Position numbers and translations under genes: made by a program. Source: Aphanothece sacrum FPU1 (GTDB lineage: Bacteria > Cyanobacteriota > Cyanobacteriia > Cyanobacteriales > Microcystaceae). From it: DNA of 64,000 nt. The stretch spans positions 1 through 64,000 of the forward strand of contig NZ_BDQK01000014.1 in NCBI RefSeq assembly GCF_003864295.1. The letters run 5' to 3'. Of this stretch, positions 43,482 to 52,359 are shown in pieces; positions within the stretch are counted from its first letter, which is position 1; every line of letters starts with the position of its first letter. A model generated the notes under the pieces. That model searched no databases. It was not told where the DNA came from and worked only from the letters and a program-made list of their open reading frames with translations.

Positions 43482-44138
43482 TTAGGACACTGTGCGAAGC
43501 ACATCTTCCATGGCATCCCGGAGACAGTCAAACTGACTAATTTTTTTACGAATTCGACTCTTTAACCATGACCAGCATCGCTCAATTTTATTAAGGTCAG
43601 GTGAATAAGGTGGCAAGTATTTTAACTGGCAACCAGCAGCTTCAATTAATTCTTTAATACCTCCACCTTTATGAAAGGTAGCATTATCGGCAATCACTAT
43701 TTGACCCGGTTTTAGTGATGGGATCAAACAAGTTTCTAGCCACGTTTCAAAAACGATTCTATTACAAGCTCCTTCAACAGTAAACGGAGCGAACAGCTCT
43801 CGATTACACAAGGCAGCAATCATATTAACTCGTCCTTCCCTCCTCCCACTTTTGAGTGCATAAAAACGTTTTCCTCTTTCATTATAACCATAGCCATAAT
43901 CTTCTCTATTATCCATGCCCGCCTCATCTATATAAACTCTTTGCTCAGGTTTATATCTAGCTATTTCTTCAGAGAATTTCTGTCTAGCGAAGTCTCCTGT
44001 TTCTTTAAGACGCTTCAGCCATAAATCTATGGTATTACGACTAATGTTGAATAGTTCGCTTGCTTCACTCTTTTTGAGTCCATCAAGCTCGGTGCTTTCG
44101 CACTCGCGCAGCGAGAAGGTTTTTAAAAACCCCTGCAA
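43482..44138 (-). pseudogene. IS630-family transposase, internally deleted and trimmed by hairpin repeats
   Basis: The 218-codon frame keeps a helix-turn-helix (KKSEASELFNISRNTIDLWLKR) and the DDE catalytic core: YIDEAGMD, VIADNATFHK and YSPDLNKIERCWSW supply D, D and E. Between LKETGDFARQ and KFSEEIARYKPEQ about 60-75 residues present in full-length relatives are missing. The first 10-15 residues (FSLRECESTE) are encoded by three tandem hairpins at 44092-44131 rather than by IS630 sequence. The start is a TTG. It is therefore probably inactive. It lies between a foldback element and the hicB gene. Confidence 0.8.
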
Positions 44139-45538: not shown

Positions 45539-46891
45539 TTAACCATTCAATAAAGCTTCCACAAACTCATAACTAGAAAACGGCCGCAAATCCTCAATAC
45601 CTTCTCCGGCCCCAATAAAACGAATCGGTAAATTTAATTGTTGCGCCACAGCTAAAGCGACACCCCCTTTAGCCGTCCCATCCAACTTAGTTAAAACCAC
45701 TCCACTCAATTTAGCAGACTCGGCAAAAACTTCCGCTTGACGTAGACCATTTTGTCCCAAAGTCGCATCTAATACCAGCAAAGATTCTACATGAGCATTA
45801 GGAGCTTTTTTATCAATAATACGGCGAATTTTACTTAATTCTTCCATCAAATTCTTTTTATTTTGTAACCGTCCTGCCGTATCCACCAACAATAAATCAA
45901 TCTGACGCGCTTGAGCAGCCGCGATCGCATCAAAAACAACCGCAGCAGGATCAGTATTTTGACCAGGATTAGCAATTACTGGAGTATTACTTCTTTGTCC
46001 CCAAACCTTTACTTGTTCAACCGCCGCAGCGCGAAAAGTATCAGCAGCAGCAATAACACAACTGTAACCCGACTTTTGTGATAAATGGGCTAATTTGCCG
46101 ATAGTTGTGGTTTTTCCGGCCCCATTAACCCCCGTGATTAACCAAATATTGAGAGTATCCTTTTCAGGAGCAAACCCAGGATTTTTGACCTGTTGTAAGG
46201 GACGGTCTAAAATATCCCGTAAAATCGCTTTTAAAGACTCTATGGCTTGTTCTGGGGGTAAAGCTTCCTCTCTCAATTGAGTTTGTAGGGTATTGATAAT
46301 ATAATCCGTCGCTTCCACCCCCACATCCGCTTGCAACAGTAACGCTTCTATTTCCGTCACAGCGTCTTGATTAAGAGGCCCTTGACCAACAATAGCCTTA
46401 AGTTGGTTAACGAGGTTACGGCGCGTTTTTCCCAGGCCTTGACGTAACCGTTTCAACCAGCTAATTTCTTCAGCAGAAATATCGTCAGGGGTGCGACCTT
46501 GGGCGGCTAATACTTTAGCAGACCAGACAAACTCCTCGTCAAAAGCTAATTCTGGTGTTTCTGGAACTGTTTCTGTTTCCAGGGCCGTTTCTTTGAGGAT
46601 GTCCAAACGTTCAGATTTTTGCATCCAAGCAGGTAATGCTTCGGTGACTTCTTGCGGTTGAACTTCAGGGGTTTGAGGTTTTTCTGTAGGATTGTCTAAA
46701 GTTTCGGGTTCAGGTGCGGTTTCTTGACGTTGTTGAATATTTTTGTAAGCAGTTTTAGCCCAAGTCAGATAGTCATCTTGACTGGTTTGGGGAGTTGGGG
46801 TTTCAACTGGGGTAGGTTCAACTTCTGGGGTTGAGGTTGGTTCTTCGGGTTGACTAGATTTTTGAGTTTGACGACGAAACCAGTTAAACAT
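45539..46891 (-). CDS. ftsY: Signal recognition particle receptor FtsY
   Basis: FtsY binds the SRP-ribosome complex at the membrane and exchanges cargo to the translocon on GTP hydrolysis. After an acidic, Pro/Glu/Thr-rich linker (about 1-145, typical of cyanobacterial FtsY), the N domain and the SRP-type GTPase domain follow: G1 GVNGAGKTTTIGKLA (about 255-269), the insertion DTFRAAAVEQ, G3 DTAGRLQNKKNLMEEL and G4 TKLDGTAKGG. The first residues FNWFRRQTQK are amphipathic and probably help membrane contact. The 28-base gap to the next upstream gene suggests co-transcription with the signalling operon. Confidence 0.97.
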   Translation of the reverse strand: MFNWFRRQTQKSSQPEEPTSTPEVEPTPVETPTPQTSQDDYLTWAKTAYKNIQQRQETAPEPETLDNPTEKPQTPEVQPQEVTEALPAWMQKSERLDILKETALETETVPETPELAFDEEFVWSAKVLAAQGRTPDDISAEEISWLKRLRQGLGKTRRNLVNQLKAIVGQGPLNQDAVTEIEALLLQADVGVEATDYIINTLQTQLREEALPPEQAIESLKAILRDILDRPLQQVKNPGFAPEKDTLNIWLITGVNGAGKTTTIGKLAHLSQKSGYSCVIAAADTFRAAAVEQVKVWGQRSNTPVIANPGQNTDPAAVVFDAIAAAQARQIDLLLVDTAGRLQNKKNLMEELSKIRRIIDKKAPNAHVESLLVLDATLGQNGLRQAEVFAESAKLSGVVLTKLDGTAKGGVALAVAQQLNLPIRFIGAGEGIEDLRPFSSYEFVEALLNG

Positions 46892-46919: not shown

Positions 46920-47414
46920 TTAGGTATTCTTTTTGGTTCGGCTATCTTTAATTTTTTGAATTTTTTGCTTTAAATTTTTAAAAGAATCTGTTTGTACAAT
47001 TTCAGCAACTTGTTTTTGTTGTCTCCCTTTATCAATTTCAATGCGTAATTCTTCAACTTGTTGTTGTAATTTACTTTCTCTTATTTTAACTTGTTCTGCC
47101 ATATTCTGAAACACCCGGGCCAGTTGACCTAATTCGTCTTCTCTGGCCGACACATCATTAAGACTAGCGATCGCAAAAGTTCCTCCTTCTACTTCGGCCG
47201 CCGCCTCTGTAATTAATTTAACTTGCTGTAAATATTTCAGCATTATTTGATTTTTTTGATAGATTTCATTTTCGAGATCAGTAGAGTGTTCCGTAATGGT
47301 ATCCAGAAGAATTTCTAAATCTTCTTTATCATTTTCTAACTCTCCGATGCGTTGTTTTAGTAACTCTATTTCTGTGTTTAACTGTTCTTGAGATGATATA
47401 TCTTTAGACATCAT
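46920..47414 (-). CDS. Coiled-coil protein with HAMP-like segment
   Basis: The 164 residues are almost entirely helical. Coiled coil covers about 5-60 and 105-160; between them AEVEGGTFAIASLNDVSAREDELGQLARVFQNMAEQV (quoted region about 75-112) matches the second half of a HAMP linker, in which the D-ELG-L---F--M signature is typical. No membrane helix or sensor domain is present, so it is a soluble HAMP/coiled-coil module. It is last in a five-gene operon with STAS, RsbW-like, CheB and PP2C proteins and may be their scaffold, which is inference. Confidence 0.75.
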   Translation of the reverse strand: MMSKDISSQEQLNTEIELLKQRIGELENDKEDLEILLDTITEHSTDLENEIYQKNQIMLKYLQQVKLITEAAAEVEGGTFAIASLNDVSAREDELGQLARVFQNMAEQVKIRESKLQQQVEELRIEIDKGRQQKQVAEIVQTDSFKNLKQKIQKIKDSRTKKNT

Positions 47415-47425
47415 TTAATTAAAAT

Positions 47426-47770
47426 TTATTCAAATTCTAGAGTCAAAGTAGGCATTAACCGTTGTAGATTTTTCAAGGATTTATCTTGCCAAGCGATAGC
47501 TTTTGAACCTTTCACGCAAATAACCATGCTACCTTTTTTACGGACATTAATGACAAATTTAGAGAGCATACTAATACCAGAACTGTTTAAAAATTCTAGC
47601 CCTTTTAAATCGAGTGTAATGACAGGCTTATCTTCCTGGACTACATTATTAAGTAAGTCAACAATTGGCTGATATTCTTCCATTCCACTTAATCTTAAAG
47701 AACCTTTAAAACTAACGGTTACAGTTTCAGAATCATAATCAATTGTACAACCCTCTGTTGTGATGTTCAT
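47426..47770 (-). CDS. STAS-domain anti-sigma-antagonist-like protein
   Basis: The 114 residues form a STAS domain: FKGSLRLSGMEEYQPIVDLL, KPVITLDLKGLEFLNSSGISMLSKFVINV (quoted region about 51-79), and a C-terminal beta strand. In proteins of this class a serine in the D-x-S-G-type loop (here LNSSGI) is phosphorylated by an RsbW-like kinase and dephosphorylated by a PP2C phosphatase, and both kinds of protein are encoded next to it. NCBI names a very similar cyanobacterial family after Synechocystis slr1659, as I recall. It lies between the ATPase and HAMP genes, all on the same strand. Confidence 0.85.
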   Translation of the reverse strand: MNITTEGCTIDYDSETVTVSFKGSLRLSGMEEYQPIVDLLNNVVQEDKPVITLDLKGLEFLNSSGISMLSKFVINVRKKGSMVICVKGSKAIAWQDKSLKNLQRLMPTLTLEFE

Positions 47771-47833
47771 AGTTAATAACTCCTTAAATTTGATCTCGTT
47801 TAAATCACCCTGATTCTAGCCATTTCCCTGAGA

Positions 47834-48433
47834 TTATACTTGTAATTTTACCATAGTCTTTACCGTTAATATAGTTTCATTATCTTGGTTATGAATAATT
47901 TTCCAGCCTAGGGTTGCGCCATAATCACATCTAATAGTAATTAATCCTAACCCTGATGCTTGACCATCATCTTGTTCTGCGAGTTTCTCCATATGATTAA
48001 CATATAACTCGTCTGGGTCAGAACCGGTCAAGTTTTCAATAACCTGATGTAACTTGGGCCAGCCCTCTATATTAATACAATTGGTAGAAAATAAAACGAC
48101 TGTATCTTTGAGCAAATGAATACCAAATTGAATAGTATCATGTAAAGTTTCATCATGAAACTTCATGGCATTTTCCAATAGTTCATTAGCAATATAACTG
48201 ACAGCCCCTTTCAATTCCTTTTGCCGATTCATGGAGGCAGGGTCATCTTCTTGGGCAGGAAAAAAGGTAGTTAAATAATCTGCCACAAAATCCGCAGATA
48301 AACCATTATTACGCCATCGTTGTTTCAGGGGAATAGAAGAAGGAGAAAAGCTAATCACCAAAAATTGATCACTAGCGGGTAACTCGTCTTCAAAATCTCC
48401 ATAAATCTCAGAATCTTTCATCGGTTTTTTCAT
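47834..48433 (-). CDS. RsbW-like (HATPase) regulator
   Basis: The 199 residues contain GHKL-ATPase features: the N-box-like AVSYIANELLENAMKFHDE (about 76-94) and a glycine-rich QASGLGLITIRCDYG (about 158-172) in place of the G boxes. It probably binds ATP and phosphorylates, or sequesters, the STAS partner encoded next. The N-terminus (KDSEIYGDFEDELPASDQFL) and the fold resemble the cyanobacterial family named after Synechocystis slr1658, as I recall. A shared, single-strand operon with PP2C and STAS genes supports a partner-switching role. The kinase activity itself is inferred. Confidence 0.78.
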   Translation of the reverse strand: MKKPMKDSEIYGDFEDELPASDQFLVISFSPSSIPLKQRWRNNGLSADFVADYLTTFFPAQEDDPASMNRQKELKGAVSYIANELLENAMKFHDETLHDTIQFGIHLLKDTVVLFSTNCINIEGWPKLHQVIENLTGSDPDELYVNHMEKLAEQDDGQASGLGLITIRCDYGATLGWKIIHNQDNETILTVKTMVKLQV

Positions 48434-48438
48434 ATAAA

Positions 48439-49491
48439 TTAGGAAGTATGGATCACTTTTTTAATCAAGGTTGGGGCAATTTCTAAAAGAGGTAAAACTT
48501 CCATAGCTGAGTCCATTTCCACGGCCGCTTTAGGCATTCCGTAAACGACACAACTACTACGATCTTGAGCAATGGTGTGCCATCCTCGTGAACGTAATAC
48601 TCCCAATCCAGTCGCCCCATCTCGTCCCATTCCTGTTAATAATACCGCAATACCCTTTCGACTCCAATATTGAGCCACACTCTCACAAAAAACATCCACA
48701 GAGGGACGATAAGGATTATCCTGGGGCTTCTTAGTGTATGTTAACGTTAAATTGGGACGTAATACTAGATGATCGTTCGTTCCTGCTAACAAAACCGTTC
48801 CAGGGACTAACTGATCTCCTTCAACTGCCAAACGAACTGTCAAAGACCCTTGTTGATTTAACCATTTGGCTAACCCTGGTGCAAACTGACTATCCACGTG
48901 CTGAATAATGACAATAGCGGCCGTAAAATTAGCAGGCAGTTCCGATAAAATAGTTCCTAATGCTTTTGGCCCCCCAGTGGATGCCCCCAGAATAATCAAA
49001 AAGGGTATGTTTCGGGGAGGATGAGAGACTTTACTTAAGGTTGTCCCTCCTCCTGGAGAAGAAACATCGGAGGTGTGGGTATGTTTTGAACGACGCTTAC
49101 CAATTAAAACCCCAATAGTAGCAATTTTATTGAGTAAAGTTTGAGACACTTCTCCTAGTCCAGAAGTCCCTAATGGGGGTGTATTCACCGCATCTAAGGC
49201 CCCATATCCCATTGCTTCAAAGACTTTGGCCGAGTTTTGTTGAACATTGGCTGTGACAATGAGGATAGCACAGGGAGATTGTTTCATAATCATGCGCGTT
49301 GCTTCTACCCCATCGACATCTGGCATAATCATATCCATTAAAATCAAATCAGGGGGATCAACAGCACATTTGGCGATCGCTTGAGAGCCATTATGAGCGA
49401 TCCAGGCTATTTTATAGTAAGACGCTGAAGTAACTATCCGTCGTAGCACTTCCACTGCCATCACCGTATCATTAACAATTGCGATCCTCAT
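48439..49491 (-). CDS. cheB: CheB-type protein-glutamate methylesterase with receiver domain
   Basis: The 350 residues combine a receiver domain (phospho-aspartate in [13 protein letters not shown], about 55-67) and a methylesterase domain with the catalytic triad: serine in [12 protein letters not shown] (about 168-179), histidine in [14 protein letters not shown], and aspartate in [13 protein letters not shown]. CheB demethylates chemoreceptor glutamates. No cheA, cheR or receptor gene lies in the operon, so the substrate is either encoded elsewhere or not a chemoreceptor. It overlaps the upstream PP2C gene by 4 bases. Confidence 0.93.
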
Positions 49492-50675
49492 TTTTGTTTA
49501 ATCACCAGTAAGGTGATGTCATCAAAGACGGTATGATTGCTGATGTGTTGCCTAACATCAGCGATCGCGGCCGTTTTAATATTTTCGGCGGATTGTTCCC
49601 AGTTTTGACTAATAACTTGACATAAACGATCAAGGCCGTAGAGTTCTCCGGTTACATTTTCTGCCTCTGTAATACCATCAGTATACAAAACCACTACATC
49701 TCCAGAATTTAAGTGAATCTCGGTTTCTCCTAAAAAATCGGTAATATCTGCTTCTAATCCCACTGGAAAGCCTAAATCTATTGTATCAACAATTTCTACT
49801 TCTCCTGCCTGACGCACCACAATAACCGATTCATGTTGTCCACTCAGTCGTAGACAATTATTTTCATAGTCTAACAAAGCCAGGGTCAAATTTTTATCAG
49901 AATTAATTCGTTCTACATTGTCATAAATAGTGCGATTAAGGGCAGCCCAAAATTTAACCATATCTGTTTCATTATGGGTCATTAAAGTGCGAATAGCCGT
50001 TTGCACCATAATCATTACTACACCACTTTCTAACCCGTGACCAGTCACATCGCCAATACCAATTTTCACCCGACCATTGTAATGTAAAACATCGTAATAA
50101 TCACCTCCAACATCACTAGCAGGTTCCATGAAACCAGCTATTTCTAATCCTTCAATTTGTTCTAACTCGGTTTGTTTTGGTAAAATCATCTGCTGTAGAC
50201 GACGGGTAATTTCTATTTCTGCACTCAAGCGTAAATTTTCTTCTTTGAGTCTTTCTTCTGCTTTTTTGCGTTTTAATAAGTTAATATAAGCTGCCGAATG
50301 ATAACGAATGCGAGCAATTAATTCCATTTTATCAGGTAATTTTACCAAATAGTCATTAGCCCCTAATTTAAAAGCTTCAGCTTTAATTAAAGGTTCTTCT
50401 TTACTTGACAAAACAATTAAAGGAGTTTCGTGAGTAGGTGCATCTTTGGCCCGCAAAAATCTGACCAACATCAAACCTTCGATGTCGGGCATAACTAAGT
50501 CTTGTAAAATCACGGTAGGACGCACTTCTCGCGCTTGTTTAATGGCTTGAGTAGGATCACGACAATAATAAAAAATAATGTCAGTTTCGCTGGCTAACAT
50601 ACGACGAATGGCTTCACCAATGGTAGGTTGATCGTCAATAAGAAGAACTTTAATAGAGGAGTCAGAGTCAGTCAT
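49488..50675 (-). CDS. Fused response regulator / PP2C (SpoIIE-like) phosphatase
   Basis: The N-terminal receiver domain ([18 protein letters not shown], phosphorylation Asp in [13 protein letters not shown], about 54-66) is followed by a coiled-coil linker (about 135-175) and a SpoIIE-type PP2C domain. The PP2C metal-binding residues are in [14 protein letters not shown] (about 186-199), [11 protein letters not shown] (about 211-221) and [12 protein letters not shown]. In partner-switching systems this enzyme dephosphorylates the STAS protein. It is the first gene of the operon and overlaps cheB by 4 bases, so phosphorylation of its receiver is likely the input signal. Confidence 0.92.
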
Positions 50676-51000: not shown

Positions 51001-52359
51001 TTAAGTCCTCTCCAGAAACTCAGAATTATTTTCTTGAGTTCCATTACGAATATGTAAGTCGCGTTGAGGATAAGGAATTTCAATATTATTTTCCTTAAAT
51101 GTTTGCCAAATTTCGCAAATCAAATTACTGGTAACAATCTTCTTACTCAAAGGATTATCAATCCAAAATCTTAATTCAAAATCAATACTAGACTCTCCAA
51201 AATTAATAGCGAATGCTATCGGATTAGGTGATTTTAATATCTTTTCATTACTATCAGCTACTTTTAACAAAATTCCTAATACTCTGTCTGGATTACATTG
51301 ATAACTTGCTCCAACAATTAAAGAACAGCAAATCAAAGAATTACTTCCAGTAAAAGTTGTAATATCTTGAATAAAAAATACTTGATTAGGTATAATTTTT
51401 TCAGAATTATCTCGTATAACTTGAACTGTTGTCGCCCTGATTCCCAACTTTTTTACTTGACTCATTTCATTATCTATGCTAATAATATCTTCTGGTTTTA
51501 AAGCTCCTTCAAATAAAAGCCAGATACCACTAACAAAGTTACTAATTACTTCTTTTAAACCAAAACCAATACCTACAGATAAACCCCCTGTAATTGCAGC
51601 GATCGCCGTAGAACTAACACCAACGTAGCCAAAAATCAAAACAATGCCTAATCCGATTAAAAAATAACGAAGAATTAGAGAAATTGCTTGAATAATTTTG
51701 GGATTATTGTTAATTTTAAAAGAAAAAATACAAAATAATAATTCTTCTAAAAGAAGACAACCAACAATCCAAAAATATAAACCTCCTAAGGTAATAAAAA
51801 CTGTCGCTAAAGTAACAGAATCTCCAAATAATTTAATTAAAGAAATTTGAGATAAAGTTTCCAAATTAGTGAAAATATTAATAATTTTAGTTAAAATGAA
51901 AATAAAAAATAAAGGAGCAAAAAAACGATGATGATAGTATTTAACTTTCACTCTATCAAATAAAGTATACAGAAAAATTAAGAATATACGATAAAAGCAA
52001 TAAATCCCTAAAAGTTTAATGCTGTCTGTTAAATATCCCAAAAACAAGCCTTGATGGAAAAAAACAATTTTTAGTAAATTAACGATTAATAAACAAAGTA
52101 ATGGAGGGATAAGATAATGAAATAAAGCTGCTCCACATTGTTGCCAATAGAGTTGTGAATTTTGTTGACAAAATTGACTACTTTTAGGAAATCGCTGACA
52201 AAACTGATACCATAACCAGCGAGAAATAAACCAAACAAGAATAATTGACAAAGCAATAGCTAATAGTTGTACTTGAACGGCAGGACGTTGTAAAACAATC
52301 GTAATTTTCAGCCATTCTTCCCAAAAATAACTAACATCAAGTATCAAATTGGTTTCCAT
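51001..52359 (-). CDS. MscS-family mechanosensitive channel
   Basis: The 452 residues carry six hydrophobic helices and the MscS core: the pore-lining helix GGLSVGIGFGLKEVISNFVSGIWLLFEGALKPEDII (quoted region about 256-291), rich in Gly/Ala and phenylalanine, followed by the cytoplasmic beta domain with VKKLGIRATTVQVIRDNSEKIIPN. Such channels open under osmotic down-shock and release solutes. The long N-terminal extension is common in cyanobacterial members. The start lies 9 bases after the solute-binding lipoprotein gene on the same strand, so the two probably form an operon, an unusual pairing. Confidence 0.92.
   Translation of the reverse strand: METNLILDVSYFWEEWLKITIVLQRPAVQVQLLAIALSIILVWFISRWLWYQFCQRFPKSSQFCQQNSQLYWQQCGAALFHYLIPPLLCLLIVNLLKIVFFHQGLFLGYLTDSIKLLGIYCFYRIFLIFLYTLFDRVKVKYYHHRFFAPLFFIFILTKIINIFTNLETLSQISLIKLFGDSVTLATVFITLGGLYFWIVGCLLLEELLFCIFSFKINNNPKIIQAISLILRYFLIGLGIVLIFGYVGVSSTAIAAITGGLSVGIGFGLKEVISNFVSGIWLLFEGALKPEDIISIDNEMSQVKKLGIRATTVQVIRDNSEKIIPNQVFFIQDITTFTGSNSLICCSLIVGASYQCNPDRVLGILLKVADSNEKILKSPNPIAFAINFGESSIDFELRFWIDNPLSKKIVTSNLICEIWQTFKENNIEIPYPQRDLHIRNGTQENNSEFLERT

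Follow-up and report, generated by a model that had tools for sequence, protein, structure and literature searches.

Introduction

Chemosensory gene clusters in which the methyltransferase CheR is fused to TPR domains have been classed as ACF systems, and the main text of the survey that describes them includes response regulators with a PP2C phosphatase and reports ACF systems in Cyanobacteria (PMC3447774). Chemosensory genes and a partner switch have been described together in the Che1 locus of Shewanella oneidensis, with CrsR and CrsA and a proposed link to RpoS (PMC9855816). Effects on iron recovery and on pgr5 expression have been described for the Slr1658 protein of Synechocystis, namesake of a family of serine kinases (Zer 2018, as cited in PMC7555055). 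Here we compare with these systems a five-gene operon in a stretch of 64,000 nucleotides of Aphanothece sacrum FPU1 (NZ_BDQK01000014.1, positions 1 to 64,000; hereafter the window).

The Operon and Its Predicted Partner Switch

The list of open reading frames and the domain matches agree with the original prediction in placing five genes on one strand, here the minus strand, at positions 46920-50675 (Table 1), and the Pfam and NCBIfam matches bear out its assignment of REC-PP2C, CheB, ATPase, STAS and HAMP domains. As had been noted, the first two reading frames overlap by four bases (49488-49491) and are followed by short gaps, i.e., 5 bases between CheB and the kinase (17 with the second ATG as the kinase start), 63 bases between the kinase and the STAS gene, and 11 bases between the latter and the gene of the soluble HAMP protein (HAMPc). 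The synteny check that had been proposed was positive: the switch module is syntenic in relatives and the five-gene set was found again in approximately ten further genomes from the window's family, so that the gene order goes beyond chance. The ftsY gene begins 28 bases past the HAMPc gene on the same strand and may be co-transcribed with the operon, but it is not a member of the pathway; it also lies downstream of the operon in G137 and G394, and not in the other relatives. Promoter and terminator scans gave results at chance level. The operon holds neither a sigma factor gene nor a diguanylate cyclase gene. A transposase-like reading frame (43482-44138; DDE type as judged by eye) lies about 3 kb away.

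Table 1. Positions in the window and best domain matches of the operon genes and of the gene that follows them.
Gene product	Position	Strand	Domain or family match
REC-PP2C response regulator phosphatase	49488-50675	-	Pfam Response_reg (71 bits), SpoIIE (134 bits)
CheB (receiver + esterase)	48439-49491	-	CheB_methylest (193 bits), Response_reg (61 bits), NCBIfam PRK12555 (460 bits)
slr1658-family GHKL serine kinase	47834-48433	-	NCBIfam slr1658_cyano NF052618 (265 bits)
slr1659-family STAS protein (antagonist)	47426-47770	-	NCBIfam slr1659 superfamily NF047705 (160 bits), Pfam STAS (26 bits)
Soluble HAMP/coiled-coil protein (HAMPc)	46920-47414	-	Pfam HAMP (26.7 bits)
ftsY	45539-46891	-	SRP54 GTPase (250 bits)

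The earlier reading of the phosphatase, kinase and STAS protein as a complete predicted partner-switch module stands, since the key residues of all three are kept across relatives. The REC-PP2C protein has an invariant receiver (D14, D15, D59, K112) and an invariant SpoIIE-type phosphatase (D192, D209, D333, D385, D386; metal-binding Asp type) in 9 relatives. The kinase, a GHKL protein of the SpoIIAB/RsbW/SiaB type, gave an AlphaFold model with a pLDDT of 86, for which the best PDB matches were SiaB (6kko_A, the SiaB-SiaC complex) and SpoIIAB (1tid_A), and its N-box residues E84, E87 and N88 are invariant in relatives. In the STAS protein the motif N62-S63-S64-G65 (NSSG) is invariant in 19 relatives and is expected to contain the phosphoacceptor Ser. 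A version of the module that appears to be driven by a sensor kinase was encountered in G383 and G384 (loci L180 and L181), where a Cache-HisKA hybrid kinase, a receiver and a HisKA-REC-PP2C protein accompany the kinase and STAS genes; BLAST had given the impression of a second CheA-driven switch there, which was discarded once Pfam identified the Cache-HisKA hybrid kinase.

The CheB Protein

The window's CheB is the only CheB domain in the genome (4.49 Mb, 99% complete). In a tree of 90 CheB sequences all 57 CheBs from the clusters described below fall, together with that of the window, on one side of a branch with a support of 99. The catalytic triad, S171, H198 and D291 in the window's protein, is kept in all 90, and therefore this WspF/cluster-type methylesterase is probably active. 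Its receiver, however, is not canonical: the switch Lys is replaced by Thr (Thr104). None of the cluster CheBs has this Lys (most have Thr), while it is present in all of the 33 other CheBs; furthermore, the first acidic position is Asn in most cluster CheBs, and even the phosphosite Asp is lost in some (G365, G366, G380, Moorena, Rhizonema). Control of CheB through phosphorylation by CheA is doubtful because of this degenerate receiver. The canonical receiver of REC-PP2C, the gene of which adjoins cheA-cheB in complete clusters, is more likely to accept the phosphate of CheA, as judged from these residues. In G394 the cheB of the operon is split into three reading frames with intact neighbours (L178:1758-3218), which may be an assembly error or decay.

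Matching Chemosensory Genes Elsewhere in the Genome

The absence of CheR and receptors had been the basis for regarding CheB as an orphan. This absence holds locally, but both are present elsewhere in the genome, which has one CheR (CheR1), eight MCPs and several CheAs. CheR1 combines CheR and TPR domains, is encoded in a cheW-cheR-MCP operon on contig C1 and shares 39% identity with the cluster CheR. When genes of relatives with a single cluster (G365/G366 type) were used as queries, orthologues of the remaining components were identified as well: MCP1 matches the cluster MCP at 63% over 276 aa (the next-best receptor at 30%); a CheA on C13 matches at 59% over 584 aa, every other CheA reaching 35% at most; CheW1 belongs to the operon with cheR and the MCP on C1; and CheW2 is encoded on C17 (E 1e-99). 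The CheA is a hybrid with the domains Hpt, HATPase, CheW and a C-terminal Response_reg, and keeps the Hpt residue H60 (HSIKG) and the G1 box DDGKG. Counted with the operon, the gene set of the predicted pathway is thus complete and spread over four contigs (C1, C13, C14 and C17), with this CheA and the second CheW as single genes on two of them. The orphan interpretation was consequently abandoned.

This gene set has the characters of an ACF/Wsp-type pathway, namely a CheR fused to TPR, a hybrid CheA with C-terminal receiver and a multidomain response regulator as output, but not their arrangement in one cluster, which is found in relatives. Because the genes are not co-located here, assignment to this pathway type rests on orthology. 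The original prediction had named a separate complete chemotaxis operon served by CheB as grounds for its own rejection; in spirit this was found, as a pathway for CheB does exist, although it is dispersed and no single operon is complete. A further locus on C13 (L013, positions 115000-127000) contains three MCPs, a CheA and a stand-alone receiver and lacks a CheB; in the G014 counterpart a canonical CheB takes that place.

Clusters and Co-occurrence in Other Genomes

In G365, which belongs to the same family, all components are encoded in a single operon in the order cheW1-cheR-MCP-cheW2-cheA-cheB-REC/PP2C-kinase-STAS-MscS-like. The order is unchanged in G366, also of this family, except that this genome has two MscS-like genes and that a hybrid histidine kinase gene (L149:7192-9132) separates cheB from REC-PP2C; the inserted kinase carries three receivers, one of them 68% identical to the receiver of REC-PP2C. 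An intermediate arrangement occurs in G380, where cheW2-cheA-(inserted gene)-REC/PP2C-cheB-kinase-STAS-HAMPc are together and cheW1-cheR-MCP are apart. The inserted gene, between cheA and REC-PP2C (L224:2884-5010), encodes a fused C5 DNA methylase-BsuBI/PstI restriction enzyme and is the sole interruption of this cluster.

A scan of the genome collection with REC-PP2C as query showed that full or nearly full clusters also occur in Brasilonema CT11, Kamptonema UHCC 0994 and Cuspidothrix issatschenkoi CHARLIE-1, in the last of which the switch genes are inverted at the cluster end; Rhizonema NSF051 has the part from cheW2 to the MscS-like gene. At many of the listed loci of Planctomycetota, Deltaproteobacteria and other bacteria, REC-PP2C adjoins related chemosensory genes with no kinase match. 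In the cyanobacteria Moorena, Nostoc, Oscillatoria and Phormidesmis the regulator in the same slot joins a receiver to a class III cyclase domain and in most cases has a HAMP linker. We do not claim that REC-PP2C arose from such a regulator by an exchange of outputs, as the receiver tree mixes both kinds in cyanobacteria and is poorly resolved.

Within the family, the kinase gene has cheB as a direct or close neighbour in 15 of 50 genomes. CheR was matched in every one of these 15, as an intact CheR1 type in 14 and in G367 only as fragments at contig ends; these counts do not represent independent events since the genomes are related. CheR1 occurs in the absence of this CheB in one of the 50 genomes (G379), which retains cheW1-cheR1-MCP1 and CheW2 and has neither CheB nor the kinase. 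G369, a separate loss, lacks both this CheB and CheR1 and retains the rest.

The HAMP Protein and a Candidate Target of the Switch

A search of HAMPc for hydrophobic segments of transmembrane strength found none, in line with the earlier view of a HAMP protein without a membrane anchor. Its sequence is that of a Glu/Gln-rich coiled coil, and its structure model (pTM 0.33) consists entirely of long helices. Residues 60-123 share 47-59% identity (E to 2e-14) with the HAMP linkers found in REC-HAMP-cyclase regulators at the same slot of sister clusters in other cyanobacteria. At the loci examined, a stand-alone gene of this kind was encountered only in the window's family, and HAMPc may have originated as a fragment of such a regulator that turned into a separate gene.

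HAMPc, which as originally proposed may be a scaffold or the target of the switch, holds the position that in the older one-cluster form is occupied, as the last gene, by an MscS-like membrane protein. This protein may be the target of the switch in that form, which is suggested by a fusion in G366 (L149:3072-4976) of an MscS-like core with a C-terminal STAS domain that is 40% identical to the window's STAS protein; the residue matching S64 is Gln rather than Ser in this fusion. One could envisage that an array would signal via the phosphatase/kinase/STAS relay to a mechanosensitive-type channel in the one-cluster form, and that a HAMP adaptor would have replaced this channel in the Crocosphaera-like family, although we consider this scenario unlikely. 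No description of an array-to-channel pathway of this kind was found in the literature consulted. Upstream of the operon, the window itself encodes on the same strand a protein of the MscS family (51001-52359), the gene of which lies beside the operon in none of the relatives examined. This gene was considered as the MscS gene of the cluster and dismissed as a coincidence, since relatives do not share its position and the channel cores are no more than 27-34% identical.

Discussion

The operon is likely to supply CheB and the output branch of a single chemosensory pathway of the Wsp/ACF type, the genes of which have become dispersed in this lineage. On the basis of gene content, orthology, conserved catalytic residues and synteny, from which each phosphotransfer, methylation and binding step below is predicted, the receptor MCP1, together with CheW1 and CheW2, would control the hybrid kinase CheA. 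CheA would phosphorylate the receiver of REC-PP2C and so alter the activity of the phosphatase towards the STAS protein, which the slr1658-type kinase would re-phosphorylate. CheR1-TPR would add and CheB would remove methyl groups on MCP1, thereby setting the sensitivity of the receptor, and the unphosphorylated STAS protein would bind, or free, a target.

That these genes form a single pathway is deduced from orthology and not from co-location, and both the degenerate CheB receiver, which makes control by CheA doubtful, and the presence in G379 of cheW1-cheR1-MCP1 and CheW2 without CheB or the kinase count against it. Moreover, the other MCP/CheA clusters of the genome could share its sole CheB and sole CheR. 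CheB might then serve another cluster (e.g., the one at 115-127 kb on C13 with three MCPs, CheA and a receiver) or all of them, its position next to the switch being incidental. The G014 counterpart of that cluster, which is directly followed by a CheB, would fit such an arrangement, but the G014 protein is a canonical CheB with the switch Lys, shares only 33% identity with that of the window and falls outside its clade. Since the window's CheB also accompanies REC-PP2C, the kinase and CheR1 across genomes, we regard service to another cluster as improbable.

If only the partner switch mattered, CheB would be a relic preserved through its place in the gene order, and an unlinked histidine kinase would drive REC-PP2C. 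The state of the CheB receivers, without the switch Lys throughout and in some relatives without the phosphosite Asp, is in agreement with this, as are the fragmented gene of G394 and the absence of CheB in G369. Against it, all CheBs compared have kept S171, H198 and D291, and the orthologues of CheA, MCP1, CheW1/2 and CheR1 are kept together in many genomes, which makes this explanation highly improbable. The original prediction had instead looked to HAMPc for methylated glutamates, i.e., to an orphan CheB acting on a non-receptor substrate within a self-contained switch. The two genes do share an operon and HAMPc is rich in Glu and Gln; however, HAMPc occurs without this CheB and this CheR1 in G369, and no HAMP gene accompanies CheB in the clusters of g168, Brasilonema and Kamptonema. 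HAMPc is therefore unlikely to be the substrate of CheB and, with a matching receptor and CheR in the genome, we give an orphan CheB of this kind hardly any credence.

With the Wsp/ACF-type pathway as the preferred explanation, an apparent orphan CheB becomes part of a defined and testable pathway, and the lack of a nearby CheR turns out to be weak evidence for an orphan CheB. A chemosensory system can evidently persist as a gene set while its operon breaks up. The pathway also connects the slr1658/slr1659 family of partner switches with chemoreceptor arrays, and it appears unusual in acting on a kinase/phosphatase partner switch rather than on a motor or a second messenger.

Comparison with Known Systems

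Published precedents exist both for PP2C regulators in ACF pathways and, in Shewanella, for a partner switch within a chemosensory locus; new here are the combination of parts, the dispersal of the genes and the HAMP exchange. The closest match in components is the Wsp system of Pseudomonas, of the ACF class, which likewise comprises an MCP, two CheWs, a CheR-TPR (WspC), a hybrid CheA-REC, CheB and a multidomain regulator. Its output is a REC-GGDEF protein (WspR), whereas here a REC-PP2C protein feeds a kinase/STAS switch and the genes are scattered over four contigs; with PP2C in place of GGDEF the pathway is Wsp-like rather than Wsp. The clusters of the ACF survey share the CheR-TPR gene and include regulators that join REC and a Ser/Thr phosphatase of family 2C in one protein; in the main text of that survey the term STAS is absent, and a dispersal of the pathway genes was not found there (PMC3447774).

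The Che1 locus of Shewanella oneidensis (PMC9855816) similarly unites chemosensory genes and a partner switch, but sigma S is acted on there, while the operon described here has no sigma factor and its kinase and phosphatase are separate proteins. SiaABCD of Pseudomonas aeruginosa resembles the switch in that the kinase model matches SiaB best (6kko_A) and the window's STAS protein is weakly similar to SiaC; it differs in that the phosphatase of the window is receiver-driven and no diguanylate cyclase accompanies it. Finally, the kinase and the STAS protein belong to NCBIfam families named after Slr1658 and Slr1659 of Synechocystis. Homologues of the kinase from genus g2 (perhaps Synechocystis), however, form a separate branch from that of the window in the kinase tree and their genes adjoin neither REC-PP2C nor CheB; because of this separate branching, transfer of the slr1658 phenotype to the window's kinase is doubtful and may not hold.
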